Under the pieces are notes generated by a model that saw only the letters and a list, made by a program, of their open reading frames with translations, made no database searches and had not been told where the DNA came from. DNA of 64,000 nucleotides from Lachnospiraceae bacterium. Its GTDB lineage: Bacteria; Bacillota; Clostridia; Lachnospirales; Lachnospiraceae. The translations under genes were made by a program, and so were the position numbers. Location of the stretch: positions 1 through 64,000 of the forward strand of contig SVFB01000085.1 in assembly GCA_015057085.1 (NCBI GenBank). Direction: 5' to 3'. Shown here piece by piece: positions 6 through 53,651 of the stretch (position 1 is its first letter; every line of letters begins with the position of its first letter).

Positions 6-134
6 GCATGTTGCTCGCAACATGCTCGCGCCGAGCGCGGTTGCATTTATGCAACATATACCTTACGCGCGAGTGCGCATCCATAGCGGAGCGTTTTTTG
101 TTTAATAGGAAATTCGGAGGAATTTCCTATTAAA
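6..134. repeat. Multi-hairpin palindromic element, copy 1 (diverged)
   Basis: Three structured blocks in order. Block A (6-25) is a perfect 9-bp stem around the dinucleotide TC. Block B has an outer stem 25-31/67-73 (CTCGCGC with GCGCGAG) enclosing a 7-bp hairpin 40-46/49-55. It is followed by a box at 74-93 that reads TGCGCATCC..AGCGGAGCG. Block C (101-134) is a perfect 15-bp stem around GGAG. The copies at 45297-45424 and 53524-53651 show the same order, the same TC centre in block A and nearly the same box, but different stem sequences. The architecture is read directly; calling this one family is inference from three examples. Confidence 0.7.
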
Positions 135-202
135 TAAAAAAGTTTTTATAAAACTTTAATATTTCGCCAACCCCTTATTTTTCGCCTGTTCGCGCCTTCT
201 TG

Positions 203-229
203 TTAGCACTCATTCAAAAAGAGTGCTAA
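203..229. promoter_or_regulatory. CIRCE operator (HrcA binding site)
   Basis: TTAGCACTC, nine bases, GAGTGCTAA: a perfect match to the CIRCE inverted repeat bound by the heat-shock repressor HrcA. It lies 138-112 bases before the htpG start codon. HrcA itself is not encoded in this window. Confidence 0.97.
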
Positions 230-236
230 TTTTCTA

Positions 237-265
237 TTGACTTTAAAATTATAGGGTATTAATAT
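237..265 (+). promoter_or_regulatory. Predicted sigma-A promoter of htpG
   Basis: TTGACT at 237-242 and TAATAT at 260-265 with a 17-base spacer, just downstream of the CIRCE element. The operator ends seven bases before the -35 box instead of overlapping or following the transcription start, which is an unusual placement for CIRCE. Confidence 0.7.
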
Positions 266-340
266 TTTTAATGTACGAAAAAACCATTCGGTTTTTCTTT
301 AAAATTAGTCAATCAATGATCTAATAAAGGAGTGAATATA

Positions 341-2431
341 ATGGCAGAAAAACATGGTACACTTTCAATCGACAGCGACAACCTATTTCCGATTATTAAG
401 AAGTGGTTGTATTCTGATCACGACATCTTCTATCGTGAGTTAATCTCAAATGGTTGCGATGCCATCACAAAATTAAAGAAGCTTGATATGATGGGTGAAT
501 ATTCCCTTCCAAATGATTACAAAGCAAAGATTCAAGTGCTTGTAAATCCGGAAGAAAAGACCATCAAAATCATCGACAACGGACTTGGTATGACTGGCGA
601 AGAAGTCGAAGAATACATTAGCCGAATCGCATTTTCCGGTGCTACCGATTTCATTGAAAAATACAAGGATAAGAGCAATGATGACCAAATCATCGGTCAT
701 TTCGGACTCGGCTTCTATTCTGCTTTCATGGTTGCAGATGAAGTTACAATTGATACTCTTTCTTATCAGAAAGATGCACAGCCTGTTATGTGGTATTGTG
801 ACGGTGGCACAGATTACACCATGACAGAAGGTTATCGTACTGAAGTAGGAACTGAGATCACACTTCACTTAAATGAGGATTGCCTGGAATTTGCAAACGA
901 ATACCGCGCAAGAGAAATCATCGAGAAATACTGCTCTTTCATGCCGACAGAAATCTATCTTGCAAAAGAAAATGCGCCTGAAGAATACGAAACCATCGAT
1001 AAGGATGACAAGCGCGATACCGATACTGTCATCGAAGAAATTCATGAAGAAGCAAAATTCGAGGAAAAAGAAAAGGAAGATGGAACCAAAGAAAAGGTTG
1101 AAGTCTCTCCTGCAAAGGATAAGTTAAAGATTGTAAAGCGTCCAGTTCCGTTAAATGATATCCATCCTCTTTGGGCTAAGAATCCAAATGATTGTACAGA
1201 TGAAGAATACAAAGCTTTTTATCGCAAAGTCTTTTTGGATTACAAGGAGCCTTTGTTCTGGATTCACTTAAATATGGACTATCCATTTAATTTAAAGGGT
1301 ATTCTTTACTTCCCTAAGATTAATACGGAATACGAATCCATCGAAGGTACAATTAAACTTTACAACAATCAGGTATTCATCGCAGATAACATCAAAGAAG
1401 TGATTCCTGAATTTTTAATGTTATTAAAGGGTGTCATCGACTGTCCTGATTTACCGCTGAATGTATCACGTTCTGCGCTTCAAAATGACGGATTTGTAAA
1501 GAAAATCTCTGAATATATCACAAAGAAGGTTGCAGACAAACTTTCCGGATTATGTAAGACAGATAAAGAAAATTACGAAAAATACTGGGATGATATCAGC
1601 CCATTCATCAAATTCGGTTGCTTAAAGGATGGAAAATTCTGCGACAAGATGAATGATTATATTCTCTTTAAAGATATCAATGATCAATATTTAACTCTTC
1701 CGGAATTATTGGTTCCGGTCGAAGAAGAATCAAAAGATGATTCTAAAGATGATTCAAAAGATAAGCCAAAAGAAGAAGCAAAAGATGAAGCAAAAGCTGA
1801 TTCTAAGGATAACGATGAGCCGAAACAGGAAACAGTATATTATGTCACTGATCCGGTTCAGCAAAGTCAGTACATTAATATGTTTAAGGAACAGGGAATG
1901 AATGCGGTCATCCTTGACCAGGCAATCGATACTTCCTTTATCACTCAGTTAGAGCAAAGAAATGATCACTATCGCTTCGAGCGCATTGATGCAGATGTAA
2001 CGGATTCCTTAAAGGATGAAAACAGCGCTGATTTGGCTGAAGAGACCACTACTCTCTCTGAGCTCTTTAAAAAGACCTTAAACAATGATAAGCTGACAGT
2101 TACCGTCGAAGCGCTCAAGAATGCGGATGTAGCTTCTATGCTTACACTTTCTGAGCAAGGTCGCCGTATGCAGGATATGATGAAGATGTATGCAGCAGGC
2201 GGTATGGGTGGAATGGATTTAAATATGTTTGCTGCCGACCAAACCCTGGTATTAAACGCAAACAATGCTCTCGTGAAATATATCTTTGAACATAAGGACT
2301 CAGAGCATGTTCCAATGTTTGTAGAGCAACTCTACGATTTAGCTGTTCTTGCAAATCAGCCATTGGCTCCTGAAGCAATGACAAAATTCGTACAGCGCAG
2401 CAACAATATTATGTTACTCTTAACAAAATAA
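341..2431 (+). CDS. htpG: Molecular chaperone HtpG (Hsp90)
   Basis: Cytoplasmic ATP-dependent Hsp90-family chaperone. The N-terminal GHKL ATPase is clear: ELISNGCDA, DNGLGMT and GHFGLGFYSAFMVAD near residues 30-130, with NGCDA where NASDA is usual. The middle domain (NVSR motif) and C-terminal dimerisation domain follow. At about 696 residues it is longer than the usual 620-640. The extra length lies in a charged linker near residues 235-260 and a D/K/E/S-rich low-complexity stretch near 463-495. The ATG at 341 is chosen because AAAGGAG at 326-332 is well placed for it; the in-frame GTG at 332 overlaps that Shine-Dalgarno. Regulation is probably by HrcA through the CIRCE upstream. Confidence 0.97.
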   Translation: MAEKHGTLSIDSDNLFPIIKKWLYSDHDIFYRELISNGCDAITKLKKLDMMGEYSLPNDYKAKIQVLVNPEEKTIKIIDNGLGMTGEEVEEYISRIAFSGATDFIEKYKDKSNDDQIIGHFGLGFYSAFMVADEVTIDTLSYQKDAQPVMWYCDGGTDYTMTEGYRTEVGTEITLHLNEDCLEFANEYRAREIIEKYCSFMPTEIYLAKENAPEEYETIDKDDKRDTDTVIEEIHEEAKFEEKEKEDGTKEKVEVSPAKDKLKIVKRPVPLNDIHPLWAKNPNDCTDEEYKAFYRKVFLDYKEPLFWIHLNMDYPFNLKGILYFPKINTEYESIEGTIKLYNNQVFIADNIKEVIPEFLMLLKGVIDCPDLPLNVSRSALQNDGFVKKISEYITKKVADKLSGLCKTDKENYEKYWDDISPFIKFGCLKDGKFCDKMNDYILFKDINDQYLTLPELLVPVEEESKDDSKDDSKDKPKEEAKDEAKADSKDNDEPKQETVYYVTDPVQQSQYINMFKEQGMNAVILDQAIDTSFITQLEQRNDHYRFERIDADVTDSLKDENSADLAEETTTLSELFKKTLNNDKLTVTVEALKNADVASMLTLSEQGRRMQDMMKMYAAGGMGGMDLNMFAADQTLVLNANNALVKYIFEHKDSEHVPMFVEQLYDLAVLANQPLAPEAMTKFVQRSNNIMLLLTK

Positions 2432-2459
2432 AAGCAATCAAAAACGGTTGTTAAAACAC

Positions 2460-2488
2460 AAAAAGCCTTGCAAACGCAAGGCTTTTTT
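2460..2488. terminator. Bidirectional intrinsic terminator
   Basis: Stem AGCCTTGC/GCAAGGCT with loop AAAC, flanked by A and T runs on both sides. It lies between the convergent htpG and GH3 genes and can serve both. Confidence 0.92.
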
Positions 2489-2493
2489 GATTC

Positions 2494-4206
2494 TTATAAA
2501 TGTGCATCCCAAAATCCGCAGAATGCATCCACCGGACTCTTTCCTTTGAACTGACTTCTTCCCATCAATTTATCGATGAGTGCATCTAAAATATTATCCG
2601 ATGAACCATAAGTATTAATATAGGTTCGAATTCTTGGAACATCTGCCAAATGATATGGATTTTCGAGAGAAATAAAGACATTTGGCATATCATCCAAAAA
2701 GGCCAAGCAATCTGCGCCCATTGGCTGTGCCCACTCCATTCTCACAACTGTCTGATTGGATTTGGTTGCATAATTTGCAACATAGATAATCAAATCATAA
2801 TTGTCTGTGACATCGGACATCGGGGCCTCTATTCCTTCAAATCCCTTTGCCGGTTGCCACACAGTCACTTGAAAACCTTCTTTTTGCAGGCGTTCCACAA
2901 CAGCGCCAACTCTACTTTCAGCACCGAATGCTAAATCAGTAGCTCCAGCCTCCTTTGGATATAAAAGAATTCTCGGGTAACGCTCCGGTGTAATCGGGAA
3001 TACCCCCTTCTCTTCTTTTACCAAAGTAATCGAAGCATCAGCAACTTCTTTTGAAACTTCATTGTGATTTGCATTGCATACCACCTGATTCACATGCTCC
3101 AAAGTCGGATATAATTCACCGCTTTTTTGCTTTTCAGGAAGCTTTAACGCAGCCTTCAAAGCCAAAATACGAACAATACTTTCATCTAATCTTTCTTGCG
3201 AAATCACGCCGCTTTCTACCGCATCTCGAATATATCCAAGATCCTCTTCCATATTCTTTGCAAACAAAATCATATCGCAGCCTGCATTGATACAGGTTGG
3301 AAGCGCATCTTTTCTTTTCATTGCAGAAGTAAGTCCGGCCATTGCAGAAGAATCAGTAATAATTGTACCGTTAAAACCTAATTCCTTTCGCAACAAATCG
3401 GTCAAAAGCTCTTTTGAAAGTGCGCCCGGCAGAATTTCTTCATCCTTCAAGGATGGATTTAATTTTCGAGACCAGGCCGGTTGCATAATATAACCTGCCA
3501 TTACGGTTAAAGTACCTGCGTCAATACAGGTCTTATATGCTTTTCCATAGGTATCCATCCATTCTTCGGCAGATAAAGAATTCACAGATGTGACAAGATG
3601 TTGATCTCTCTCATCCACTCCATCTCCCGGGAAATGCTTGATAGAAGCTGCGACACCATGCTTTTGCACCTCTGAGACATAAGCGGCTCCCATCTGAGCA
3701 ACACGATTTGCATCAGAGCCATAGGTTCTGGTATTCGTAATCGGATTACGCCAATTGTTGTCGATATCAATAACCGGTGCAAATGCCCAGTTCATACCGA
3801 GCGCATCCGCTTCCTCTCCTACGATGCGACCCAATTCAGAAGCATAATGAACATCCTCTGTCGCAGCGATTGCCATCTGGCATCCCACATGAGTTCCGGT
3901 AACAGAGCATGTATTCATTCCTGCTTCCATATTTCCGGCAATAAACATCGGGATTTTCGAATGCTTTTGCATATAATTTACAAGATTTACCAACTCTTCA
4001 TTTTTCATGGCACGGCACATCAGTCCGCCGTATTCACCAGATGCAATATGAGAAAGATAGCCCTCATCATCCGTATATGCAATGGTACAAAACAGCTGAT
4101 GAATCTTTTGCTCTTGCGTCATTTGATCTTTTGTTTGATAAACCCAATTCACTTGTTCATCCGTCAAATGATACGGTGCTCTTTGAATCAGTTCCTTTAA
4201 TTCCAT
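2494..4206 (-). CDS. Glycoside hydrolase family 3, beta-N-acetylhexosaminidase-like
   Basis: A 570-residue GH3 enzyme with no signal peptide, so probably cytoplasmic. The motif KHFPGDG followed by D-Q-H near residues 190-204 matches the NagZ-type loop carrying the Asp/His general acid pair. The predicted nucleophile is the Asp of IITDSSAMAG near residue 284. A C-terminal alpha/beta domain follows, which NagZ lacks but longer Gram-positive homologues carry. The start is preceded by AGGAG. It lies 18 bases after a sugar-type ABC permease gene, last in the apparent operon, so it probably cleaves the imported glycoside, perhaps a GlcNAc-containing one. GH3 specificity varies, so the substrate is inferred. 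Confidence 0.88.
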   Translation of the reverse strand: MELKELIQRAPYHLTDEQVNWVYQTKDQMTQEQKIHQLFCTIAYTDDEGYLSHIASGEYGGLMCRAMKNEELVNLVNYMQKHSKIPMFIAGNMEAGMNTCSVTGTHVGCQMAIAATEDVHYASELGRIVGEEADALGMNWAFAPVIDIDNNWRNPITNTRTYGSDANRVAQMGAAYVSEVQKHGVAASIKHFPGDGVDERDQHLVTSVNSLSAEEWMDTYGKAYKTCIDAGTLTVMAGYIMQPAWSRKLNPSLKDEEILPGALSKELLTDLLRKELGFNGTIITDSSAMAGLTSAMKRKDALPTCINAGCDMILFAKNMEEDLGYIRDAVESGVISQERLDESIVRILALKAALKLPEKQKSGELYPTLEHVNQVVCNANHNEVSKEVADASITLVKEEKGVFPITPERYPRILLYPKEAGATDLAFGAESRVGAVVERLQKEGFQVTVWQPAKGFEGIEAPMSDVTDNYDLIIYVANYATKSNQTVVRMEWAQPMGADCLAFLDDMPNVFISLENPYHLADVPRIRTYINTYGSSDNILDALIDKLMGRSQFKGKSPVDAFCGFWDAHL

Positions 4207-4224
4207 AAAATAAAACTCCTAATC

Positions 4225-5229
4225 TTATACATTTTCCGGAGCAGCCAATCTTGCCTTCTTTGCTCTTGCAGCCTTGATACGTGGCAACTGCGCCATGAAG
4301 GTATAGAACAACAGCATAAAGGTTCCTACAATAATCTGCTGCCATCCGCCTGAGCCATATCCGATTGCACTCAAACCATAATTTAGAATTTCCATTCCCA
4401 ATGCCGCCAATACGACACCAAGGGCATCAACAGACATTGCGCCTACAAAAACACCCATGTATGCAGGAATGATATTTGAAAACAATGTATTCGCAGTAGA
4501 AAGGCCGGACTGTGGAGCAACTGTATTATTAGATCCGTAAATACATGCTGCACAACCAAGTAAAATTCCACATACAATAAATGTTTGTATTACATTTTTG
4601 TTTTCTTTTACACCGATGTTAACAGAAGCCTGTTGGTTGTTTGCAAGAAGTTTTGAACGCTTTCCTGCAACCGTAAAATAGCAATAGCCTACAAATACGA
4701 AAAGTGCAATTGCAAGTACAATTAAAATATATGGCATTCTACCAAATACTGTTAATTTTGTGTTACTCATCATATTGAGTCCCTGTGCATCATAGATTAA
4801 ATATGTAATTGACTCATATAACAAGGCCACACCGATGGTACAAATCATAATCGGTAATCTTCCCACGATGTAGATTGTGCCTGTAATCACGCAAAGTACA
4901 ACTCCAATGGCGATACATAAAACCAAATAGAACACCGGTCCAAAATTTAGTTTCAATGCCATATTTCCGGCAATAATCGCTGTCAGAACCATGGTTGCGC
5001 CACCCGAAAAATCAAATCGGCCATTCTTTACCTGTAGCCAAATTGCCAGAGCAGCTACCGAAGTCATGGATGTGTTGACAAGTACAGTTCGCCACATATC
5101 AATGGTCAATCCATAATAGGTAACCCCTTTGCTCTTTGCCAGAATGTACATCACGACATAGATTACAAGTGGAAATAATATTGTCAGTAAAAATCTTTTT
5201 ATAAAATTAACCGCCTTATTTGTCTTCAT
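4225..5229 (-). CDS. Sugar-type ABC transporter permease (RbsC/BPD_transp_2 family)
   Basis: A 334-residue polytopic membrane protein with about eight to ten hydrophobic segments and the small-residue-rich pattern of RbsC-type permeases (FDFSGGATMVLTAI early; GVFVGAMSVDALGVVLAALG late). It would form the channel with the second permease encoded at 6486-7448. The C-terminus is short and basic (AARAKKARL). It is fourth of five co-directional genes. Family assignment is secure; the substrate cannot be read from the sequence. Confidence 0.9.
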   Translation of the reverse strand: MKTNKAVNFIKRFLLTILFPLVIYVVMYILAKSKGVTYYGLTIDMWRTVLVNTSMTSVAALAIWLQVKNGRFDFSGGATMVLTAIIAGNMALKLNFGPVFYLVLCIAIGVVLCVITGTIYIVGRLPIMICTIGVALLYESITYLIYDAQGLNMMSNTKLTVFGRMPYILIVLAIALFVFVGYCYFTVAGKRSKLLANNQQASVNIGVKENKNVIQTFIVCGILLGCAACIYGSNNTVAPQSGLSTANTLFSNIIPAYMGVFVGAMSVDALGVVLAALGMEILNYGLSAIGYGSGGWQQIIVGTFMLLFYTFMAQLPRIKAARAKKARLAAPENV

Positions 5230-5263
5230 AATAGCTGCTCCGTTTAATTAATCTAACTTACTT

Positions 5264-6427
5264 TTAGAGACCAAGTCCCTGTAATTTTTCAACAAGTGCT
5301 GCATAAGTTGCATCTGAGTTATAAGATGCACACATCTTTACAATATCTGCGCCTGTGATTACTGCATCCTTATAATCAGCAGTAAAATACAACTTTGTCT
5401 TCATCTGTTCCATATCTTTATCAGAAATAACTTCATAAGGTGTACAATCTACTCTTTCTGATTTTTCAGGAAGATCTGCATAGGTTGTTCCATTTAGCTT
5501 ATCAATCAGTAAACATAATGGATATACAATTGCTTCAGGTGCTGAGCACATGATTCCCTTAAATACACCATTTCCTGCTGAACCAAAGTTTTCTACATCA
5601 TCTGTTGCTTCAAATCCTGTTGTATAAAGTGCAATATCGGTACGACCTGCAGCAACAATTACCGGATATACAAAATTAGCACCGGCTGCCAATGAGAAGA
5701 TGCAATCGATATCCTGATGCTCGCTCAGATAAGTATCCTCTAATGGTGCGAACTGCAATTCTACAGTATCAACCAATGTGATTGGCTCTTCTGCTGTCTT
5801 ATTGTATTCTTCAATGGTTGCACGGAAAGCCTTATCTGTATCTGCCTGATTTGGATATGCCCATGAAGGGAAGGTGATTACGCCAACATTCTTATAACCG
5901 TTTTCGATGATAGAATTTGCTACATCGATTCCGTACTGTGAAGAATCCTGCCATCCATCACATACTGTTCCAAGGAAATATTCGCTTCCGAATACCTCAT
6001 CATATGCAGTTGTATAACTGGTGTTGTAATCGCAAAGAAATCCTGCCATATATACGCCTGCAGAAGTACATTCCTGCAAAATAGAAGTGGTTCCCATATC
6101 TGCAGTTAAAATGATTCCCTCGCATCCTGATGAGATCAAATTCTGAACTTCTGACAGGTTTGTAGCCTCATCATAAGTACTCAATGTTACATAAGAGAAT
6201 TCACAATCAACTTCAGAAGAAATGCCTTCCAAATATGCTTTGATTGCATCAACTGCTCTTCCTGAGTCAGTATAAAGACCTACACCAATTTTATGGTGCT
6301 TTGTTTCCACACCGGTGGTATTTCCACCCTGTGTGCTTGAACTACCGTTTGATCCACAACCAACCAATGTTGTGATTCCCATTACGGCAGCCAATCCAAG
6401 TGCTGCTAACTTTTTGAAATTAATCAT
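5264..6427 (-). CDS. Substrate-binding lipoprotein of sugar-type ABC transporter
   Basis: A 387-residue type I periplasmic-binding-protein fold anchored as a lipoprotein: the signal peptide ends in the lipobox TTLVGC with Cys24, then a Ser/Gly/Thr-rich linker. The body has the Rossmann-like pattern of Peripla_BP_4 proteins (KIGVGLYTDSGR, SSGCEGIILTADMGTT). It is translated from a strong AAGGAGG site, consistent with excess synthesis of the binding subunit. A partly paired GC stretch and T-run lie between the upstream permease and this gene and could be a weak attenuator. An unusual point is its place between two permease genes. The ligand is unknown. Confidence 0.92.
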   Translation of the reverse strand: MINFKKLAALGLAAVMGITTLVGCGSNGSSSTQGGNTTGVETKHHKIGVGLYTDSGRAVDAIKAYLEGISSEVDCEFSYVTLSTYDEATNLSEVQNLISSGCEGIILTADMGTTSILQECTSAGVYMAGFLCDYNTSYTTAYDEVFGSEYFLGTVCDGWQDSSQYGIDVANSIIENGYKNVGVITFPSWAYPNQADTDKAFRATIEEYNKTAEEPITLVDTVELQFAPLEDTYLSEHQDIDCIFSLAAGANFVYPVIVAAGRTDIALYTTGFEATDDVENFGSAGNGVFKGIMCSAPEAIVYPLCLLIDKLNGTTYADLPEKSERVDCTPYEVISDKDMEQMKTKLYFTADYKDAVITGADIVKMCASYNSDATYAALVEKLQGLGL

Positions 6428-6485
6428 TTCTTTTTTCCTCCTTTTTATAAAAACCCCTAAGGGAAGTTACCGGTTTTGCTGTTTT

Positions 6486-7448
6486 TTATCTAGGAAGGAC
6501 ACCATCCTTCTTGCGACAGGTAATCATAATAACTGCCAAAAATACAATTGCTTTAATCACATATCCGTATTTCACATCTACTCTTGAAAGTGTTAATCCA
6601 TTCGAAAGAATCACATAGGTAAAAGCTCCCACAAGCGAGCTGGAAATCTTTGATTTCATTCCACCGGATAAAGGCATTCCTCCTAATAAAAGTGCAACCA
6701 TGATATCCATAGCATATCCTGTTCCGGTTCCTTTTCCCGCAGCCCCTGTTCTCGCAGTCAGTAAGAATGCACCAACTGCCACACAGACTCCGAAAAATGC
6801 ATAAGCGAAAACTTTCCATTTTACGGTATTGATTCCGGAAAATTCAGTGGCCAGTTCGTTGGCTCCGATGCTCTTTACGTATTCACCTAACTGTGTAAAT
6901 TTGTAAAGATAAATAGAAATCAATGCCAATACAATGATGACTCCAATCATAAATCCGGTGCTTTTAAATAATGTCATATCCGCCTGAATCGCAATGCTGT
7001 TTACAGCCAGCTTTTCCATCATAAGCACCTGGACTCCGCCGAAGATGGACATCAGGAAAATAGAAGTAACAATAGATGGAAGTCCCAACATTACTGCCAC
7101 ATAACCATTGATTAAACCGCTAATTAAAGCCAATGCCAGAATAACTGCGAATCCCGCTAACAACGATCCTGTTTGATTGGTGACAAGAATCATCAAAATA
7201 CAGTACACTCCAACCTGAGCACCAACACTGATATCCATATAACCCATAGAATAAATAAAAATGGCTCCCATGGATAATACTGCATATACGCAAACGGATT
7301 GAATCAAAATTCTGAAGTTATAACTACTCCAAAGTAATCCTTTACTGGTAATAGAAAAGATTAAAATACATAAAATCAATCCACCATAGCTTAAGATGTC
7401 GGCTCCATGATTGGAAATCCATTCTTTTGTCGATATTTTTTTCATCAT
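6486..7448 (-). CDS. Sugar-type ABC transporter permease (RbsC/BPD_transp_2 family)
   Basis: A 320-residue integral membrane protein with around nine hydrophobic helices and typical family segments (GYMDISVGAQVGVYCILMI; DIMVALLLGGMPLSGGM close to the C-terminus). It lies seven bases downstream of the ATPase gene, so the two are probably translationally linked. With the protein of 4225-5229 it would give a heterodimeric translocation pore. The start shown has the cytoplasmic leader MMKKISTKEW before the first helix. Confidence 0.9.
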   Translation of the reverse strand: MMKKISTKEWISNHGADILSYGGLILCILIFSITSKGLLWSSYNFRILIQSVCVYAVLSMGAIFIYSMGYMDISVGAQVGVYCILMILVTNQTGSLLAGFAVILALALISGLINGYVAVMLGLPSIVTSIFLMSIFGGVQVLMMEKLAVNSIAIQADMTLFKSTGFMIGVIIVLALISIYLYKFTQLGEYVKSIGANELATEFSGINTVKWKVFAYAFFGVCVAVGAFLLTARTGAAGKGTGTGYAMDIMVALLLGGMPLSGGMKSKISSSLVGAFTYVILSNGLTLSRVDVKYGYVIKAIVFLAVIMITCRKKDGVLPR

Positions 7449-7455
7449 GCGCCTC

Positions 7456-25757: not shown

Positions 25758-25882
25758 CAAAAAAGCCGACCTCTGAACAACAATTACAGAAACTCCTTCA
25801 AAATAATTGGTGCCCAGACGGTCGGCAAATATAAATGTTATACTTCATGTGGTATACTCCACTTTCCGTCAGTCATATAACA
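25758..25882 (-). ncRNA. ZTP (pfl) riboswitch with terminator
   Basis: On the minus strand the leader shows stem GTTATA/TATAAC (25876-25881 with 25837-25842), the conserved GACTGACGG segment, a small GTGG/CCAC hairpin and then GCCGACCGTCTGGGCACC (25826-25809), matching the 3' conserved part of the pfl motif. GCCGACC then pairs with GGTCGGC at 25771-25765 followed by TTTTTT, a terminator exclusive with the aptamer pseudoknot. ZTP signals folate shortage at the AICAR step, so binding should switch on the downstream purO and formyltransferase genes. Recognition is by motif; one core base (CTGACG for CTGGCG) differs from what I recall. Confidence 0.92.
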
Positions 25883-25887
25883 TGGTT

Positions 25888-43516: not shown

Positions 43517-43520
43517 TTAT

Positions 43521-45291: not shown

Positions 45292-45296
45292 TCACT

Positions 45297-45424
45297 TTTA
45301 TCTCAGTCGGAGTTACAATCTCCGACTGAGATAAACGCTCCGCGAGGATGCGCAGAGATTTGCATATGAAATATGTCAGCTACGCTGACGCAAATCTCGC
45401 GCCAAGTCTCGCGAGCGAGACTTG
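45297..45424. repeat. Multi-hairpin palindromic element, copy 2
   Basis: A 128-bp element that is the reverse complement of 53524-53651 with only two mismatches, both in the loop-proximal part of the first hairpin. In this orientation the order is hairpin C (TTTATCTCAGTCGG with its complement), box CGCTCCGCGAGGATGCGCA, a stem GAGATTTGC/GCAAATCTC enclosing GTCAGC/GCTGAC, and hairpin A (CAAGTCTCGC-GA-GCGAGACTTG). It starts five bases after the stop codon of the SOS-controlled gene. There is no T-run, so it is not a simple terminator. Confidence 0.93.
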
Positions 45425-45514
45425 AACCCTCGTTTGCGATTTTTCCATTGTTTCTTTATAATTATGACTGAAGTTTTTTAGTATAGCACGGCATATTCAT
45501 TTTTTTTAAATCAT

Positions 45515-45522
45515 GTCGATAT
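45515..45522 (+). promoter_or_regulatory. Possible SigD (sigma-28) -10 box
   Basis: GTCGATAT differs by one base from the sigma-28 -10 consensus GCCGATAT and lies 39 bases before the transglycosylase start. The expected -35 TAAA is not present at the right distance, so this is weak on its own. Confidence 0.3.
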
Positions 45523-45560
45523 AAATTTAAATGGGGATTGTTTAGAAAGGAAGTGGCAGG

Positions 45561-46367: not shown

Positions 46368-48857
46368 TTGAATCTGATTATCCTGCGCTTTCACTTCCAG
46401 TTTTACTTGCGCAGACTTCTTCATTCGAATCACTGCCAATGCGGTTCCGCGGTATGTTGTGGCTTTTCCTGAAGCATAGCAATCCTCTGTAATCGGATTG
46501 GCAGATCCGAATCCCAGCAAACTTCCATCTCCTGTTACAATGGCTTCCAATTCTTCCGTCGCATTTGTAACAACATTTTGATGCTCATCCACAATTTCTA
46601 CTTTTACATACAATAAACATTCGTCATCCTTTGGAGCAGGCATTTCTTCTTTGATCAGGCGGATTGCTTTCGGTGTCGATGCTGAAGATAACATATCCTG
46701 TGAATCTCCGTCAGCATCCTTTCCAACCACGCGCAAAGTTCCGGCTTGATAGGTGGTATCCAGCTTTGCAATATGATCAGAAGTTTCAACATTCCCAATC
46801 AATTCATCATTCAAATAAAATTCCACTGAAGATGCCGAAGAATATGCCACAATCTGAATCGGCTTTCCTTCATATCCCTTCCAATCCCAGGAAGGAGTCA
46901 CATCCGGCCAGCCCCACATGCTAACCAATTCTGCTTTTCCATAGTCCTTCGGATCAACCGTAAAGACTCTTGTAACCTTTTGCCCCCAAAGGATTTGACG
47001 CATCACGCCTTGCGGCAAAACAGTTCCGTTAATATCAATATCCGCATCATTTGCCAGTCTCCATGGATATTTTGAAGAATGTGACATCAAAGAAAACGGC
47101 CCTGCTTGAATTTCCGGACTGTCAGGCTCTCCAAAAACAGACTTTCCGATTCCTGCTTCTCCGATATAATCAAATGCAGTCCAGGTGAAATCACCGATCA
47201 CATGAGAAAGCTTCTGCGTCAATGACCAAACCTCTTCCATCTTGTTCGGATATGACTCCGTACCTACAATCACACGTTCCGGATATAATTTATGATCCAG
47301 TTCATAATGATCATCCATGTAATTGTATCCAACCACATCAAGATGTCCAACGAATGCTTCTGACCGTTCTTCCCAACTGGTATCTTCACTATCACCGGAA
47401 GCGTTTTGCATCTGCGTCACTTCTCCTGACATTGCTGCAAGAAATGCTTTTGCACCTTCCTCTGCTGTTCGATCATCGAGTCCTGACCAATAGGAGCATA
47501 AACCATTGGTAATCAATCCGTTCGGGACCAACATGCGCATATATTCAGCCAGTTCCATTGCGATTTGATAACCATCACCAAGACCGCCGCGCTCCACAAT
47601 TTCATTTCCGGTGGACCACAAAATAATCGAAGGATGATTCCTGTCGCGCTTTACAAAAGAAGCCATATCCGCTTTCCAATCCGTATCGAAAAATTGGCTG
47701 TAATCTCCCGGTTGCTTTGCCATTCCCCAGGCATCAAAAGCTTCCGTGAATACATAGATTCCCAGACGGTCGCAAGCCTCCATCAGCTCTTTCGAAGGCG
47801 GATTATGCGCCATGCGAACCGCATTGTAACCCAACTCCTTCATCTTCTTGATTCTGCGATATTCACTATCATAAAATGAAACCGCGCCAAGAATACCATG
47901 ATCATGATGAATACAGCCGCCTTTTAATTTCACAGTTTCTCCATTAATGCGCAAACCGTTTTTCGCATCTGCTGTAACTGTACGAATACCAAAAAGCACC
48001 TGCTGTTTGTCATAGGCCGGCTCTGCCTCACAGGCTTCCAGGCGCACACCGAAGGTTCCTATTTCTGTCATTTCAGCTGCAACGATATATAAATTTGGAT
48101 GCAGGGCGTCCCACAGTTTCGGATTTTCCACCGTCATCGGAATCCTGGCAACCGTCTCGCTCTGCTTCTTTACAAAAACTTTTGCAGTTCGAACCGGTGC
48201 TGCTTTTGCATCCTCTTCCGAATTCAAAGAAAGCTTTACTTCCACCATTCGATCTTTCAAAGTCTCGTTTACTACTGTTACCTCTGCCATGAGATAAGCA
48301 CAATTTTCCCCATCCTGCGATTGTTCCACACGCTTGGTATATGTATAGATTCCATCTGTTGCAATATGTAAAAAAGGCCGATGTTCAATTGTGACATGTC
48401 GATAGATTCCAGCGCCGGTATACCATCTGCTATTTGGTTGCATTGACGGATTACAGGTCACCGTGATGCGATTCTCACAGCCGAAATCCAGTCGCTCTGT
48501 CAAATCCACATCAAAAGGTGTGTAGCCATAATGATGCAAAGCCACGCGACTTCCATTCACTTCTACAGTGGCATTCATCATCACGCCATCAAAATGCAAT
48601 ATCACCTGTTGATTTTTCCACTCCTCTGGAATTACCACATGTTTGGTATAATTTGCAATTTTTCCATCGAAATAGCCCATTGCAGGTCCTGCCGGAGCAT
48701 CCTTTGTCACCGGTTGCTCTATCATATAGTCATGCGGCAGACAAACGCATTTTCCGCGATTGCCCTGCAAAAATGAAAGCGCATCATACATGCCCTCTTT
48801 CCAATACCATTCCTCATCAAATGATTGTACTTGTTTCTTTACATCTAATTTTTGCAT
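46353..48857 (-). CDS. Glycoside hydrolase family 2, beta-galactosidase-like
   Basis: An 834-residue enzyme with no signal peptide, so cytoplasmic. The order is sugar-binding jelly roll (1-170), Ig-like domain (170-285), TIM barrel (285-590), and C-terminal Ig-like domains (DUF4982-like, 600-834). Acid/base is Glu419 in WSTGNEIVERGG and nucleophile Glu534 in VVGTESYP. KLKGGCIHHDHGILGAV and NAVRMAHNPPS are typical GH2 motifs. It probably degrades galacto-oligosaccharides from galactan; beta-glucuronidase or other activities are less likely but possible. It is divergent from an AraC regulator that probably controls it. Confidence 0.92.
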   Translation of the reverse strand: MQKLDVKKQVQSFDEEWYWKEGMYDALSFLQGNRGKCVCLPHDYMIEQPVTKDAPAGPAMGYFDGKIANYTKHVVIPEEWKNQQVILHFDGVMMNATVEVNGSRVALHHYGYTPFDVDLTERLDFGCENRITVTCNPSMQPNSRWYTGAGIYRHVTIEHRPFLHIATDGIYTYTKRVEQSQDGENCAYLMAEVTVVNETLKDRMVEVKLSLNSEEDAKAAPVRTAKVFVKKQSETVARIPMTVENPKLWDALHPNLYIVAAEMTEIGTFGVRLEACEAEPAYDKQQVLFGIRTVTADAKNGLRINGETVKLKGGCIHHDHGILGAVSFYDSEYRRIKKMKELGYNAVRMAHNPPSKELMEACDRLGIYVFTEAFDAWGMAKQPGDYSQFFDTDWKADMASFVKRDRNHPSIILWSTGNEIVERGGLGDGYQIAMELAEYMRMLVPNGLITNGLCSYWSGLDDRTAEEGAKAFLAAMSGEVTQMQNASGDSEDTSWEERSEAFVGHLDVVGYNYMDDHYELDHKLYPERVIVGTESYPNKMEEVWSLTQKLSHVIGDFTWTAFDYIGEAGIGKSVFGEPDSPEIQAGPFSLMSHSSKYPWRLANDADIDINGTVLPQGVMRQILWGQKVTRVFTVDPKDYGKAELVSMWGWPDVTPSWDWKGYEGKPIQIVAYSSASSVEFYLNDELIGNVETSDHIAKLDTTYQAGTLRVVGKDADGDSQDMLSSASTPKAIRLIKEEMPAPKDDECLLYVKVEIVDEHQNVVTNATEELEAIVTGDGSLLGFGSANPITEDCYASGKATTYRGTALAVIRMKKSAQVKLEVKAQDNQIQSAII

Positions 48858-48972
48858 AGTTCAGCCCTCCTAATCTCATCATATCAGCATTGAGGCGATT
48901 TTCCCATAAGATAATTTTTATGCAATCCGAGATTTTTTGACATTTTTATTTTATTTCGATATATTGTTTACA

Positions 48973-48986
48973 AGCGAGACTTGAAC
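48973..48986 (+). repeat. Dispersed 14-base motif AGCGAGACTTGAAC
   Basis: The exact motif lies 22 bases before the AraC start codon. The same 14 bases occur at 17315-17328 (end of addB) and at 45414-45427 (hairpin A of the element and its flank); close versions lie at 13058-13072 and 53522-53537. This is far above chance for 64 kb. Confidence 0.75.
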
Positions 48987-49007
48987 ATAAAATGCGGAGG
49001 ATGAGCA

Positions 49008-50123
49008 ATGGCATTTTTACTCTATGGTGATATTATGAACACCATATATTTATACTATCTTAAGCATGGGCACGGAATCACCATTCAAAAAGCTGCTGAA
49101 CTATTAATCGCAAAACAAAAAGTGCGAAACGGACTGCCACAGCAACCGGATTTTTCCAAATGGGATACTACAAATCTCACACAATTAAAAGAATTATCCT
49201 ATAACCTTGGTTTTTCTGTTGATGAAATTCACAAGGTTGAGACAGATTATGCACCCCAGAGCAAAATCCGGACATATCATCTGCGAAATCGTGTCCAGAT
49301 TTCTACCGAAACAGAATATAATACTGATGAATATGTTTCGCTTCCCTATATCACAGTTATATATATATTGAAAGGGAAAGCAGACTTTTTCACAGAAGAG
49401 GAATCTATGGTGTTGCACGAAGGTGATTTATTGATTTTGCCGGAACATCTTCCCTTCCGCCTATTTGTAACAAAGGATGATATCGCCTTAAATATCGTAA
49501 CCGGAAAGGATTTGTTTCAGCAAAATTTTACCGGACTTCTCTCTGACAATGCTGTGCTATCAGATTTTTTCCACCGCGCACTATTTGAAACCAATCCGGA
49601 AATCCTTCGCTTTTATCTTCCGATATCCGAGGAAATTTTAGATATCATCCGCCACCTTTTCATCGAATTCACAATGCAAAAGGATTTTTATATCGATGTG
49701 TTTTTAAATTACCTGCAGATCTTTTATGCAGAAATATTTCGAAACGGCGATGCGCAACCGAAGCATATCAGCCGAAAAGATACTTCGCGAGTGAATCTGG
49801 TATCCTCCTTGCTGATGTATATTCAAGCCAACTACCGCACAGTCACCCTACAGGAATTGGCAGAACAATTCCATTATACGCCGGCTTATCTGAGTCGGCT
49901 CATTCACAGCGAAACCAAAATGACGCTAAACGAACTAAAGACGCAGCTAAAAATGAAGACCGCAAAGGATTTGCTTCATAATACAGCCTTAACCATCGAA
50001 CAAATATCGGAATTGTCAGGCTACAACAGTGCCGACCATTTTACACATATTTTCAAGAAAGAAACAGGAATTGCACCAAGCTTATATCGGAAGCAACATG
50101 TCTCTTCCGGTTTATCAAACTAA
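49008..50123 (+). CDS. AraC-family transcriptional regulator with cupin domain
   Basis: A 371-residue regulator. Residues 95-190 form a cupin sugar-sensing domain (YITVIYILKGKADFFTEEE, LHEGDLLILPEHLPF); residues 265-365 hold two helix-turn-helix motifs (LQELAEQFHYTPAYLSRLI; IEQISELSGYNSADHFTHIFKK). The ATG at 49008 has GGAGG in front. It is transcribed away from the GH2 gene with a 150-base shared region, the usual arrangement for an AraC activator of a glycosidase. It may respond to galactose-containing sugars (inference). Confidence 0.93.
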   Translation: MAFLLYGDIMNTIYLYYLKHGHGITIQKAAELLIAKQKVRNGLPQQPDFSKWDTTNLTQLKELSYNLGFSVDEIHKVETDYAPQSKIRTYHLRNRVQISTETEYNTDEYVSLPYITVIYILKGKADFFTEEESMVLHEGDLLILPEHLPFRLFVTKDDIALNIVTGKDLFQQNFTGLLSDNAVLSDFFHRALFETNPEILRFYLPISEEILDIIRHLFIEFTMQKDFYIDVFLNYLQIFYAEIFRNGDAQPKHISRKDTSRVNLVSSLLMYIQANYRTVTLQELAEQFHYTPAYLSRLIHSETKMTLNELKTQLKMKTAKDLLHNTALTIEQISELSGYNSADHFTHIFKKETGIAPSLYRKQHVSSGLSN

Positions 50124-50133
50124 AATTTTTGAT

Positions 50134-50160
50134 TAATATTTTCAGCAGATCTGCCGATAT
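50134..50160 (+). promoter_or_regulatory. SigD/FliA-type (sigma-28) promoter
   Basis: TAAT (50134-50137), 15 bases, GCCGATAT (50153-50160). The consensus is TAAA-N15-GCCGATAT, so only one base differs. A 10-bp palindrome GCAGATCTGC (50145-50154) overlaps it and could bind a regulator. It would transcribe the structured leader and the EF-hand-like gene, tying that gene to motility-type regulation. Confidence 0.72.
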
Positions 50161-50291
50161 ATATTTTGCGAACATGAAAGGGAATACATGTGAAGCGAAC
50201 CGGGACATGTGGTCATTCCGGTAGGAACTCAAACAATTACATACGTAACGCCAGGGACGGAAGCGCATTTAGTGTTCTTTCGTCCTTTTTT
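50160..50291 (+). ncRNA. Structured leader with intrinsic terminator, unknown class
   Basis: After the sigma-28-like promoter the leader has a possible closing stem TTGCG/CGTAA (near 50166 and 50244), hairpin ACATG-N10-CATGT, hairpin ACCGG-N14-CCGGT and then a terminator GGACGGAAGCGC...GTGTTCTTTCGTCC plus TTTTTT (50255-50291). GGGAAT in the first loop can pair with ATTCC of the second hairpin. The gene starts 70 bases after the terminator. The layout fits a riboswitch or attenuator, but it does not match c-di-GMP, cobalamin, FMN or other classes I know. The terminator could instead just end the araC transcript. Confidence 0.45.
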
Positions 50292-50359
50292 GTTTCTTTC
50301 TTGAACGGACTCAACAACAGAAATAATCGTTACTCAATCTTAACAAAGGAGTGAAGTAA

Positions 50360-51460
50360 ATGATTATCACATCAAGTAATGTAAACATGGCTTCTAATCG
50401 AAGCTACCGAAAACACGAGCTATCCTACACGGCATATCAACGTTCCATGACCTCTCTCGGAGTTCAAACAACTCCGGAAGGTTTTCAGAATCTGATAGCG
50501 GATAAAAGCGCACAGGATGATACATCCACATCCGGCCAGGCCTCAGAAACGCCTAGTTCTCTGGAGGATATCAAGGAAATGCTCTCCTCTACTTCCGAGA
50601 CCATGCGCGCCAATCTCTACCAAAACCAGTTAAAGCAGGTTGAAGATGTGCGACGAAAAATTATCCAATATCTGATGAAGTTACTCTTCGGTCAAGATGA
50701 AGTTTACGATTTAGACGAAAACCTGCAGTCTTCTGCCAATCAATCATCTTCTGACGCGACCTACAGCATCGGAGTGCAAACCAATCGTTATACAACCTAT
50801 TACGAATTTCACGAAGATGAATCGGTAAGCCTTTCTACCACAGGTACTGTGCAAACGGCAGATGGACGCAGCATTGATTTCGGTGTCAATCTAAATCTCA
50901 CGCGTTCTTTCACAGAAGTAACTTCAACACAGGTTGATTACAGTCAACCGATTTTAATTGATCCTCTGGTAATCAATGTTGATGCCTCTTTTGTCGGGCT
51001 ATCTGACCAAACCTTTACTTTTGATCTAGATTCGGATGGCACGGCAGATGAAATGAAAGGTCTCGCACAAGGAAGCGGATTCCTTGCTCTGGACCAAAAT
51101 GAAAATGGCATCATCGACAACGGCTCCGAACTTTTCGGCACAACCACTGGAAACGGATTCGAAGAACTGGGGGAATATGATGAAGATGGTAATGGTTGGA
51201 TTGATGAGGCAGATTCTGTCTTTTCGAAATTAAAGGTTTGGTGTAAAGAAAAAGACGGAACCGACAAATTAATCGACCTAAAAGATGCAGGCGTAGGCGC
51301 TATTTACCTAGGCAGTGCCGCCGGAGACTTCTCTCTTACCGACGAAAACAATCAGACCGATGCGATTGTGCGCAGACATGGAATCTTTTTGTATGAAGAC
51401 GGTAATGTAGGAACCATCCAACAAGTGGATATGGCCGCACAAGCCGACTACTCTGCATAA
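50360..51460 (+). CDS. EF-hand-like acidic protein without signal peptide
   Basis: A 366-residue acidic protein. The N-terminus MIITSSNVNMASNRSYRKHE has no Sec signal. A helical charged region (70-115) is followed by a beta section (130-215) and then Ca-binding-like loops FDLDSDGTADE (222-232), LDQNENGIIDNGSELFG (245-261) and YDEDGNGWIDEADSVFSKLKVW (273-294). The last two loops with SELFG are a motif of many Firmicute surface or secreted proteins. AAAGGAG precedes the ATG. The sigma-28-like promoter suggests export by the flagellar apparatus or a motility link. No family function is known to me. Confidence 0.85.
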   Translation: MIITSSNVNMASNRSYRKHELSYTAYQRSMTSLGVQTTPEGFQNLIADKSAQDDTSTSGQASETPSSLEDIKEMLSSTSETMRANLYQNQLKQVEDVRRKIIQYLMKLLFGQDEVYDLDENLQSSANQSSSDATYSIGVQTNRYTTYYEFHEDESVSLSTTGTVQTADGRSIDFGVNLNLTRSFTEVTSTQVDYSQPILIDPLVINVDASFVGLSDQTFTFDLDSDGTADEMKGLAQGSGFLALDQNENGIIDNGSELFGTTTGNGFEELGEYDEDGNGWIDEADSVFSKLKVWCKEKDGTDKLIDLKDAGVGAIYLGSAAGDFSLTDENNQTDAIVRRHGIFLYEDGNVGTIQQVDMAAQADYSA

Positions 51461-51494
51461 AACCAACTGTACACCATTCACAAATTGACCACGC

Positions 51495-51525
51495 AAAAAG
51501 GCTGTCCATTCGGACAGCCTTTTTT
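51495..51525. terminator. Bidirectional terminator
   Basis: AAAAAGGCTGTCC, loop ATTC, GGACAGCCTTTTT between the convergent EF-hand-like gene and trpF; A and T runs serve both. Confidence 0.92.
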
Positions 51526-51531
51526 GCATGA

Positions 51532-52179
51532 TTATTTTAAATTTGCCTCTTTACTATTTTCAATGAATCTTTGGACTTTCACAGCACTTTTCCCGCAATC
51601 GCCCTCTACTCCGCTACTGACATCTACCACATTAGGCGCAAACATTGAAATCGCCTGTCCCACATTTTCCGGATTCAAACCGCCTGCAAATACCAGCAAT
51701 TTCTGTGTCTTTTTTAAGGAATTCAAATACTGCTGTATCGCATCGCGCTTTGCGATTTCTTCATCCCAGCCGGATGTTCTTCCACTGCCATATTTCGCAG
51801 CATCCACAACATAAGCCTTGATTTTCTTATCTTCACACAACTGCATGCTTGCATCATCAGCTCCAAGATTTACGGCTTGCCAGATATCACCATCCCAGGC
51901 TTGCAATACTTCTGAAGATAATGTTCCATGTACTTGAATCACAGAGAAGCCAAGGCTTTTCAAACGTTCCAACAAGGAAAGCGTCGGACTTACGCATACT
52001 GCCACCGGCATAATTGCCGAATCCAAACAAGAAAGCAATTCCTTTGCCTTTTCATCGCTTAAGTTCCGCTTGCTTTTCTCAAAAAATACAAATCCGGCAT
52101 ACTCCGGGCGATATTGATTGATTAAATTTATATCCTCTAATGTGGTAATCCCACAAATTTTCACTTCTGTTTGTTTCAT
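51532..52179 (-). CDS. trpF: Phosphoribosylanthranilate isomerase
   Basis: A 215-residue TIM barrel for the third step of tryptophan synthesis. VKICGITTLEDI contains the catalytic Cys, YVVDAAK is near the catalytic Asp (DAAKYGSGRTSGWDE), FAGGLNPENV is the phosphate-binding loop, and VDVSSGVEGDCGKSA the second phosphate site. No other trp gene is in the window, so it is an orphan, 10 bases downstream of alr in the same direction. A dual role (HisA-like) cannot be judged. Confidence 0.95.
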   Translation of the reverse strand: MKQTEVKICGITTLEDINLINQYRPEYAGFVFFEKSKRNLSDEKAKELLSCLDSAIMPVAVCVSPTLSLLERLKSLGFSVIQVHGTLSSEVLQAWDGDIWQAVNLGADDASMQLCEDKKIKAYVVDAAKYGSGRTSGWDEEIAKRDAIQQYLNSLKKTQKLLVFAGGLNPENVGQAISMFAPNVVDVSSGVEGDCGKSAVKVQRFIENSKEANLK

Positions 52180-52189
52180 CTTTCATCAA

Positions 52190-53368
52190 TTAATGGTTGT
52201 CCATAATTTTCAGTTTCAATTCACGATCGACTTCTTTTCCGTCCTTATAGAACACACGCGGTACGCGCTTTGAAACCGCACAAGTTAATTCATATGGAAT
52301 CGTTCCTGCGGCCGCTGCCATATCATCCAGAGAATTATGTTCTCCGAAAACAGAAACCTCATCACCCACGCCCACATTTGGCGCATCTGTCAAATCAATC
52401 ATGCACATATCCATACAAATGCGGCCTCTGATTTCGGCCGGGCCATCCGCTGTATAAAAAGCATAATGATTTGATAAAGAGCGAAACAAACCGTCCGCAT
52501 AACCGATTGGAACCACGCCCATTCGTGTTTTCCGCTCACTGGTCCAGGTGGCTCCATAGCTTACGCAAGTGCCCGGCTCATAAATCTTAATGGTACTAAT
52601 GGTTGTCTTTAATTCCATCACAGGCTTTAGCCCTAAGCGCTTCGCCTCCGGGCCGTATCCATAGAGCAATAATCCCGGGCGAACCATATCTAAATAGGTC
52701 TCCGGATAATTTGCAACTGCCCCTGTATTGGCACAATGCTTAATTCGAAAAGTAAAACCTTTCGCCTCCACCGCATGAATCACATCGCAAAACAATTGAA
52801 ATTGCTTCTTGGTATATTCTTTTGCAAAATCAGTATATTCATCAGATAACGAAAAATGAGTAAAAACACCTTCCGTATCCAGATAAGGCAATGTCACTGC
52901 ATGATAAACAGCTTCCACACCATGGGAAAAATGATCTCCGTCACACAAAAATCCCAGTCGGGACATTCCGGTATCAAGCTTGATATGGACACGTAATTTC
53001 TTTCCGATTTTTTGAGCTTCTTCATTGTATTCTAACGCTTTGCTCTCGCAGGTAACCGCCTGGGTAATATTGTATTTGATCAAAGTTTCCACTTGATCCT
53101 TTGGTGTATGTCCCAGCACCAAAATCGGCATCGTAATTCCGGCATCTCTTAACTCGCGTCCCTCATCTGTACTGGATACCGCAAGATAATCCGCGCCTAA
53201 ATTCTGTAACTCTTCCGCCACCTGTGTCGCACCATGCCCATAGGCATCCGCCTTTACAACGCCAAGGAATTTGCAATTTGCGCCGATGCGCTCTCTCAAC
53301 GTGTTGTAATTATATTTTAAATGGTCTAAATTGATTTCTGCCCATGTTCTTCTTAATTCCGTATACAA
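52190..53368 (-). CDS. alr: Alanine racemase
   Basis: A 392-residue PLP enzyme making D-alanine for peptidoglycan. The PLP lysine is in FLGVVKADAYGHGA; the second catalytic base is Tyr in CVSYGATW; MDMCMIDLT and RPGLLLYGYGP are family motifs. The start is uncertain. AAGGAG lies nine bases before a TTG at 53368 that gives MYTELRRTWAEINLDH; an ATG five codons before the final TTG region (53377) lies directly on the ribosome site. TATAAT is present upstream near 53405. It is followed by trpF. Confidence 0.95.
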   Translation of the reverse strand: MYTELRRTWAEINLDHLKYNYNTLRERIGANCKFLGVVKADAYGHGATQVAEELQNLGADYLAVSSTDEGRELRDAGITMPILVLGHTPKDQVETLIKYNITQAVTCESKALEYNEEAQKIGKKLRVHIKLDTGMSRLGFLCDGDHFSHGVEAVYHAVTLPYLDTEGVFTHFSLSDEYTDFAKEYTKKQFQLFCDVIHAVEAKGFTFRIKHCANTGAVANYPETYLDMVRPGLLLYGYGPEAKRLGLKPVMELKTTISTIKIYEPGTCVSYGATWTSERKTRMGVVPIGYADGLFRSLSNHYAFYTADGPAEIRGRICMDMCMIDLTDAPNVGVGDEVSVFGEHNSLDDMAAAAGTIPYELTCAVSKRVPRVFYKDGKEVDRELKLKIMDNH

Positions 53369-53463
53369 GATCTTCATCTCCTTAATTAACAATTGCTTTT
53401 CCTATTATAGCACTCTTTTCCGAAACTGTTACCACTAAATCCAAGATATAGAAACGCATGTGC

Positions 53464-53513
53464 AAAAAAACACCCGAAAACATACTTTATAGATACGTTT
53501 TCGAGTGCTTTTT
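53464..53513. terminator. Terminator between alr and the esterase gene
   Basis: Stem CACTCGAAAAC/GTTTTCGGGTG (one G-T pair) with T-runs in both directions. On the minus strand it ends the esterase transcript after the hairpin element copy 3. Confidence 0.85.
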
Positions 53514-53523
53514 GTAGAGGTTT

Positions 53524-53651
53524 CAAGTCTCGCTCGCGAGACTTGGCGCGAGATTTGCGTCAGCGTAGCTGACATATTTCATATGCAAATCTCTGCGCAT
53601 CCTCGCGGAGCGTTTATCTCAGTCGGAGATTGTAATCCCGACTGAGATAAA
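53524..53651. repeat. Multi-hairpin palindromic element, copy 3
   Basis: A 128-bp element, 126 of 128 bases identical to the reverse complement of 45297-45424. Order on the plus strand: hairpin A 53524-53545 (10-bp stem, TC centre), stem GAGATTTGC/GCAAATCTC (53550-53558, 53585-53593) enclosing GTCAGC/GCTGAC, box TGCGCATCCTCGCGGAGCG (53594-53612), and hairpin C 53613-53651. Relative to the esterase gene it starts 23 bases after the stop codon, the same placement and orientation as copy 2 has to the SOS-controlled gene. Confidence 0.93.

Follow-up and report, generated by a model that had tools for sequence, protein, structure and literature searches.

The first 64,000 nucleotides of contig SVFB01000085.1 from the draft genome of a Lachnospiraceae bacterium (hereafter, the window and the source genome) contain three copies of a short structured element. 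The original prediction, made from the letters of the window, described an inverted pair of nearly identical copies and a third copy with different stems in the same order. For comparison between copies, a covariance model, R1, was trained on 19 copies, including the first window copy (3–140) and excluding both inverted copies; the scores of copies 2 and 3 (Table 1) are independent of the training because neither copy is among the 19. The inverted pair was borne out, with arms slightly longer than originally noted (45297–45431 and 53517–53651, 135 nt each, 98% complementary, with 8,085 nt between them), and R1 aligns to the third copy slightly beyond the 6–134 first proposed. All three copies have the common order of hairpin A, a closed domain with an inner hairpin, a box, and a long hairpin C. 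Two points were overlooked: a small hairpin makes up the right half of the box, and the source genome holds a family, dozens strong, to which the three copies belong. As detailed below, the element behaves as a mobile element and not as a fixed RNA gene; it is probably non-autonomous mobile DNA, about 130 bp long, that uses a single-stranded form and a mover acting in trans.

The element carries no gene of its own, and its top strand folds as four hairpins or domains designated A, B, M, and C. Hairpin A comprises about 10 bp, and its loop is frequently CTTG or CTCG. Domain B contains a GCGC/GCGC clamp, a tandem G-A/G-A in a CGAG/CGAG context, stem B1, and the inner hairpin B2, which carries a bulge of ~10 nt on the 3' side; a one-sided bulge is included in the closed domain of all three window copies. 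By a simple motif test, the tandem G-A is found in 52 of 74 copies, with Watson-Crick pairs in its place in the others. Domain B is followed by a constant CATCC, the mini-hairpin M, which is the right half of the box (TGCGCATCC-N-GCGGAGCG), and hairpin C, which is AT-rich and has a T-run at its start and an A-run at its end.

Table 1 Features of the window copies and of the diverged copy beside the Y1 transposase gene of the source genome (window positions, unless a locus is named).
Feature	Position	Strand	Basis or detail
Copy 1 (subfamily F3), whole	3..140	+	R1 134.5 bits, E 1.9e-29; box at 74-93
Copy 1 hairpin A, 10 bp, TC centre	5..26	+	sequence; helix 1 covaries, 98.1% paired
Copy 1 domain B, whole	28..78	+	sequence, R1 alignment, helices 2-4
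Copy 1 domain B, clamp and tandem	GCGC 28-31/75-78; G-A 33-34/71-72	+	
Copy 1 domain B, interior	stem 35-39/66-70; inner hairpin 40-55; bulge 56-65	+	
Copy 1 mini-hairpin M, GC-GGA-GC	86..92	+	sequence; mini-hairpin tally
Copy 1 hairpin C, T-run to A-run	94..140	+	R1 alignment; helices 5-6
Copy 2 (subfamily F1), whole	45296..45426	-	R1 70.7 bits, E 9e-15
Copy 2 hairpin A	45403..45424	-	sequence
Copy 2 box	45336..45354	-	last 9 nt (45344-45336) = mini-hairpin M, CGC-GGA-GCG
Copy 2 hairpin C, short form	45297..45335	-	sequence, R1 alignment
Copy 3 (subfamily F1), whole	53522..53651	+	R1 67.9 bits, E 4.1e-14
Copy 3 hairpin A	53524..53545	+	sequence
Copy 3 box	53594..53612	+	mini-hairpin M at 53604-53612
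Copy 3 hairpin C, short form	53613..53651	+	sequence, R1 alignment
Diverged copy (subfamily F4) beside the only Y1 gene of the source genome	L292:2-140		box CGCATCATGCACGGAGTGC; M stem GCAC/GTGC
Only Y1 gene of the source genome, REP-type, 258 aa	L292:584-1436, contig C26		NF047646 68.3 bits, cut-off 80

Comparison of copies shows a paired structure that covaries. In a plain MAFFT alignment of 19 copies, changes on both sides were found at 22 of 41 pairs, as opposed to 10.3 in shuffles. In an alignment of 85 copies, which was fitted to the model and hence favors the model structure, both-side changes occur at 40 of the 41 pairs, 97.4% of pair cells are paired, and the covariation score is 0.578, compared with at most 0.095 when the partners are slid. 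An initial MAFFT alignment of mixed subfamilies had given a poor consensus fold, and the later set was restricted to one architecture. At gathering thresholds, no Rfam 15 family matched the element in the window and 12 further loci, and no description was found in the open-licence PMC papers searched, although the element may still be published; to this extent, the proposal of an undescribed family stands. The accompanying claim of selection on structure is supported by the copies and their covariation, with the reservation that the covariation in hairpins A and C could partly reflect template-switch repair. That the compensatory changes in A and C would arise wholly by such quasi-palindrome correction, and not by selection, in what would otherwise be the same mobile repeat, seems unlikely. 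By eye, paired changes are seen in single copies of a nearly identical family (loci L045, L047, and L100), hairpin C is reversed in L077, and hairpins C are swapped between subfamilies F1 and F2 in L035 and L076, the latter two rearrangements being a sign of recombination or template switching in a palindrome. However, neither the exchange of the tandem G-A with Watson-Crick pairs nor the occurrence of GNA loops on varied stems resembles palindrome correction.

The mini-hairpin M, C(GNA)G, was scored in 103 of 114 distinct copies, and 6 of the other 11 do show it in their sequence and merely failed the ATC anchor of the tally. For 49 of the 114 copies, which derive from the exact-box scan or the window, the GGA loop is largely there by construction (48 of 49). 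Among the 65 copies detected by the model alone, 55 have C(GNA)G, with the loops GGA (48), GTA (3), GCA (3), and GAA (1) on the stems GC/GC (15), CGC/GCG (14), CCC/GGG (9), GCC/GGC (7), CAC/GTG (6), TGC/GCA (2), CTC/GAG (1), and TC/GA (1). GNA loops closed by at least two G-C pairs are described, in a passage of PMC4686876, as extraordinarily stable, nuclease-resistant DNA hairpins. We take the mini-hairpin as the best hint that the folded form may be DNA and that it is the top strand that folds. If so, this would be a natural use of the GNA mini-hairpin, which has so far served in oligonucleotide chemistry (PMC4686876).

The draft of the source genome (2.79 Mb) has 80 occurrences of the exact box and none of the same pattern read backwards, so the count is not due to chance. 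The copies in this genome form at least four subfamilies, F1, F2, F3, and the diverged F4, the first three with the A stems CAAGTCTCGC, CAAGACTCGC, and AGCATGTTGC, respectively. The flanks differ between copies, and numerous contigs of the draft terminate within a copy; the element breaks draft assemblies. Neither a scarcity of further copies nor a lack of covariation, the two outcomes that would have refuted the original prediction, was observed. In related genomes, R1 matched 28 of 60 genomes, the source genome included, 27 of them of the genus and one from another family of the same order. Comparison across the whole family, with one genome per genus, shows many similar copies per genome and R1 matches in 126 of 250 genomes (source genome included), or 103 of the 202 of good quality; the element is thus present in half of the genera sampled from a family of gut bacteria. 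Because at most 13 candidates per genome were scored in the search of the 250 genomes, under strict filters, the copy counts are floors, and the negatives may include misses. A scan of GTDB contigs for the exact box yielded at least 117 stretches; most titles among the 80 listed are from Lachnospiraceae or other Clostridia, with Butyrivibrio, Lachnospira, Coprococcus comes, and [Clostridium] aminophilum among the named carriers, and the remaining listed matches look like chance occurrences in high-GC genomes.

Sequence comparison also shows identical cores in different genera. All 91 positions of the F2 core agree between the source genome, Lachnospira multipara ATCC 19207, Eubacterium oxidoreducens DSM 3217 (two copies), and a Eubacterium metagenome-assembled genome, and the flanks of these cores differ; 90 of the 91 agree in Lachnospiraceae bacterium C10 and 86 in L. 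pectinoschiza. NCBI taxonomy places Lachnospira multipara and Eubacterium oxidoreducens in different families. A phage origin was considered in view of matches in 12 'Bacteriophage sp.' records and rejected. The six records inspected look like bacterial scaffolds because the scanned open reading frames (ORFs) are mostly household genes: nine of ten had Pfam matches (EPSP synthase, ThrRS, BipA, DHDPS, SpoIIE, M23 peptidase, and others). These faecal scaffolds (MT837746, MT836815, MT839494, MT835487, MT836788, and MT838019) are likely mislabelled. Among 14 IMG/VR stretches, one strong R1 match, near a contig end, and one weak match were found, and no plasmid match was obtained for one F1 query.

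At its 3' end, the element often abuts an intrinsic terminator hairpin, as judged by comparison of flanks. In 39% of 107 copies, a hairpin begins no more than 5 nt from the 3' end; the corresponding figure is 2% for 106 5' flanks and no higher than 1% for flanks after shuffling. In this comparison, 32 of 144 matches had been removed beforehand as overlapping, and the threshold is strict. The 3' neighboring gene ends toward the element in 27 of 34 cases, the 34 including L198, which probably reflects a chance match within a gene; in single-chromosome genomes it does so in 23 of 25 cases (23 of 27 when two orientation exceptions are included). Relative to the gene whose end it faces, the element is thus antisense in most cases. 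Placement is looser in F1 and F2: in eight copies of the source genome (L037, L038, L055, L062, L066, L072, L073, and L076) the stop codon of the neighbor lies 1–2 nt from the element, which may there supply the gene end.

Filled and empty sites behind the same gene were revealed by comparison of species at ilvC; this gene was detected in 52 of the 60 genomes from the genus, and 30 of its loci were compared. The element lies directly on the ilvC terminator stem in three loci (genomes G034, G013, and G011), in the order, read in gene direction, of stop codon, terminator stem, T-tract, and element; three other loci have an R1 match elsewhere, and 24 have none at E 0.001. Strong covariation, position at gene ends, and a wide host range are what would be expected of a functional structured RNA or terminator accessory selected at gene ends and spread mainly by duplication together with host DNA. 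This explanation is nevertheless very improbable, as the flanks of copies differ, the terminator site of ilvC is filled in only 3 of 30 species, cores are identical across genera, one copy is nested in another, and the element is mostly antisense to the gene that it faces.

Insertion leaves no target duplication, according to the same kind of comparison: direct repeats of at least 5 nt flank none of 23 F1 and F2 copies, nor do the F1 ends form inverted repeats, as they match at 4 of 11 positions (copies lacking either end or having a long C were left out of the end-repeat test). A classical miniature inverted-repeat transposable element was rejected on these grounds. The two ends of hairpin C differ in constancy. 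With long-form C copies excluded, the 5' arm equals the subfamily standard in 31 of 32 rows of short F1 or F2 copies, one row being the F3 side of a nested pair, and the last 5 nt depart from it in eight. In G034, as judged by eye with L102, which has another C, omitted, a constant 5' run is seen in 10 of 11 copies and a variable 3' run in five. Counted by eye, the 3' end alone is variable in 11 copies and the 5' arm alone in none (sign test, P 0.001). In the nested pair, an F1 copy lies within hairpin C of an F3 copy and a single ATAAAAAA is retained. We infer from these sequences that the A-run would be mostly target and that the T-run after M would pair with it. In two places, L365:1501-1759 and G034:C1:248448-248733, one element follows another immediately, head to tail, as would be the case if the end bearing hairpin A, with a T-tract on the other strand, had been the landing site.

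By comparison of chromosome arms, the orientation of the element is bound to replication. Copies were counted in six genomes that have a single main chromosome contig (G034, G250, G291, G144, G161, and G163): 92 of 97 have the orientation expected from the arm when the switch is fixed at the chromosome midpoint, and 94 of 97 with the best switch per genome. Two matches on secondary contigs had been removed, as had 10 of 107 chromosome matches that overlapped on the opposite strand or were partial, most of them on the palindromic hairpin C. The origin was inspected in G034, G250, and G291, where the first gene is dnaA-like by eye and the GC skew flips between the arms. The top strand is the strand made as the lagging strand. 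In sampled stretches of G034, G250, and G291, 274 of 320 genes are co-oriented with replication, a baseline that the 92 of 97 for the element exceeds moderately (P 0.0035). An orientation purely locked to that of genes was rejected, since this 86% leading-gene baseline explains most, but not all, of the bias. On the single contig of G034 (C1), all seven Y1 matches are co-oriented with replication, as IS200-type insertion would predict.

Since the element has no gene, an enzyme that moves it has to work in trans, and none of the obvious families shows a clear association. Non-autonomous derivatives of IS200/IS605 elements are known as PATEs. A REP- or PATE-like element moved by a Y1 HUH transposase of the TnpA_REP (RAYT) or IS200 type, the gene for which would have been lost from many genomes, would fit the hairpins at the ends, the lack of target site duplication, the replication-bound orientation, and a possible guide-target pairing, all of which resemble IS200/605. 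This candidate was promising since the only Y1 gene of the source genome starts 444 nt from the diverged F4 copy, and R1 matches were found at three more of 19 Y1 loci: L293 of G003 (weak, 24.1 bits, at ~470 nt) and, in G034, L301 (~1.4 kb) and L300 (~6 kb). Loss of tnpA_REP from genomes retaining REPs is also suspected in a passage of PMC6006769. However, co-occurrence and adjacency then failed, and Y1/RAYT was set aside as the mover. According to overlaps counted from hand-typed genome lists, Y1 genes are present in 144 of 250 genomes and the element is not significantly associated with them (both 78, element only 48, Y1 only 66, neither 58; Fisher P 0.20), nor with RAYT of the source-genome type, which is present in 55 of 250 genomes (element in 28 of the 55 versus 126 of 250 overall; Fisher P 1.0). 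Y1 is missing from 22 of 55 many-copy genomes (at least eight listed matches), and G011 has 24 copies and no Y1. None of 29 other RAYT loci has an R1 match. Directly behind the RAYT gene of the source genome lies a palindrome of ~70 nt with GGGGACGG, which is probably the repeat of this RAYT type, a REP system of its own, because GGGGACGG occurs in 16 of the 29 other RAYT loci, compared with 3 of 29 element loci and none of 30 ilvC loci. We regard movement by Y1 as possible but rather doubtful.

Bacterial-C group II introns, according to a passage of PMC8919778, insert just after rho-independent terminators, on the lagging-strand template. Target and strand would be the same for a retroelement in which a group II intron, or some other reverse transcriptase, copies RNA of the element into the T-tracts of terminators, in the manner of a short interspersed nuclear element. 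In the 250 genomes, again counted from the hand-typed lists, a group II reverse transcriptase is present in 147, with a weak excess together with the element (both 82, element only 44, reverse transcriptase only 65, neither 59; P 0.054). Against this, the source genome has no match to TIGR04416 or RVT_1, RVT_1 was found in none of 11 genomes tested (the source genome and 10 many-copy genomes chosen as lacking Y1 and group II reverse transcriptase), and no group II intron family of Rfam matched the window and 12 loci, all of which makes retrotransposition very improbable. Among the few copies compared per genome (numbers in brackets), the best pairs are 95–96% identical in three such genomes, G236 (6 copies), G146 (7), and G233 (4), and 77% identical in G271 (2 copies). 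The spread in the first three is not very ancient, because of this identity, and the gene for the mover may be lost or unassembled there. A derivative of IS91-type (Y2) elements was rejected because Y2 (PF04986) is absent from genomes G034 (35 copies), G019, G020, G002, and G031; PF04986 was found in G016, which has no R1 match, and once each in the source genome and G011, with no pattern seen and no statistic computed.

We hypothesize that the element moves at replication forks and that its moving form is folded single-stranded DNA. At the insertion site, the T-run after M would pair with an A-tract complementary to the T-tract that follows a terminator; the final nucleotides of the element would then be largely target. 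Landing behind a terminator would spare the gene, and copies would therefore build up.

Several observations weigh against this scheme. The hairpin threshold is not reached by 61% of 3' flanks, and the F1 copies of the window adjoin stop codons without a clear terminator. The 5' T-run is variable in F3 and in the copies of G011, and the nested insertion is a single event. The folding energies of domain B split on the strand: RNA parameters favor the top strand in 46 and the bottom strand in 25 of 74 copies, whereas DNA parameters favor the top strand in 19 and the bottom strand in 46. The strand with the GNA loop is the complement of the lagging-strand template, the template being where IS200/605-type elements act, according to a passage of PMC6006769. 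The excess of orientation over that of genes is moderate, and none of ten clusters of neighboring proteins (at least three loci each; 558 ORFs from 152 loci) resembles, by eye, a mobility gene.

A self-folding single-stranded DNA might alternatively spread independently of every known class of transposase and reverse transcriptase. Fragments of the top strand, made nuclease-resistant by the GNA mini-hairpin and the tandem G-A pairs, would use their A-tract end to anneal to T-tracts that lie exposed next to terminator hairpins on the lagging-strand template. They would then be taken up like Okazaki fragments, much as laboratory oligonucleotides are incorporated in recombineering. The identity of the folding strand with the nascent lagging strand, the lack of duplication, and the failure of any enzyme family to track the element would all be explained by this model, which we consider quite unlikely. 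Movement of a DNA element by an enzyme acting in trans is the reading that we prefer.

Other features of the window include a ZMP/ZTP riboswitch at 25805–25886 on the minus strand (Rfam, 64.2 bits against a cut-off of 39) and an inverted repeat, TTAGCACTC-N9-GAGTGCTAA, at 203–229, which is presumably a CIRCE operator. The repeat lies ahead of the ORF 332–2431, which by its first residues looks, by eye, like HtpG.

Among known systems, the element resembles REP and REPIN sequences with their TnpA_REP (RAYT) transposases in being short, intergenic, hairpin-forming, geneless, present in many copies, and probably moved in trans. It differs from them in its length of ~130 nt with four hairpins, compared with 20–40 nt for REPs, and in its lack of association with RAYT, the RAYT of the source genome having another palindrome beside it; no GT[AG]G-type foot was found at hairpin A in the 5' flanks of 22 F1, 13 F2, and 11 F3 copies. 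BOX, bcr1, and similar repeats of Firmicutes are, like the element, modular, structured, and present in many copies, although their hosts differ. With PATEs, the element shares hairpins near both ends, the absence of target site duplications and terminal inverted repeats, an orientation bound to replication, and a possible pairing of an inner T-run with the site; it differs in having no significant association with Y1 and in that its GNA-loop strand is not the lagging-strand template. Like group IIC introns, it lands just behind intrinsic terminators in lagging-strand orientation, as the intron target is given in the passage cited above (PMC8919778), but it has no ribozyme match or reverse transcriptase, is far shorter, and occurs in genomes free of RVT_1. 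Membership in IS200/605 therefore fails on the enzyme, and membership in group IIC on both the enzyme and the ribozyme. Without clearly following the enzymes of any of these systems, the element joins features of three kinds of mobile DNA that are unrelated to each other, namely REP repeats, IS200/605 elements, and group IIC introns, and its closed genomes, filled and empty sites, and strand rule make the spread of geneless short repeats directly testable.

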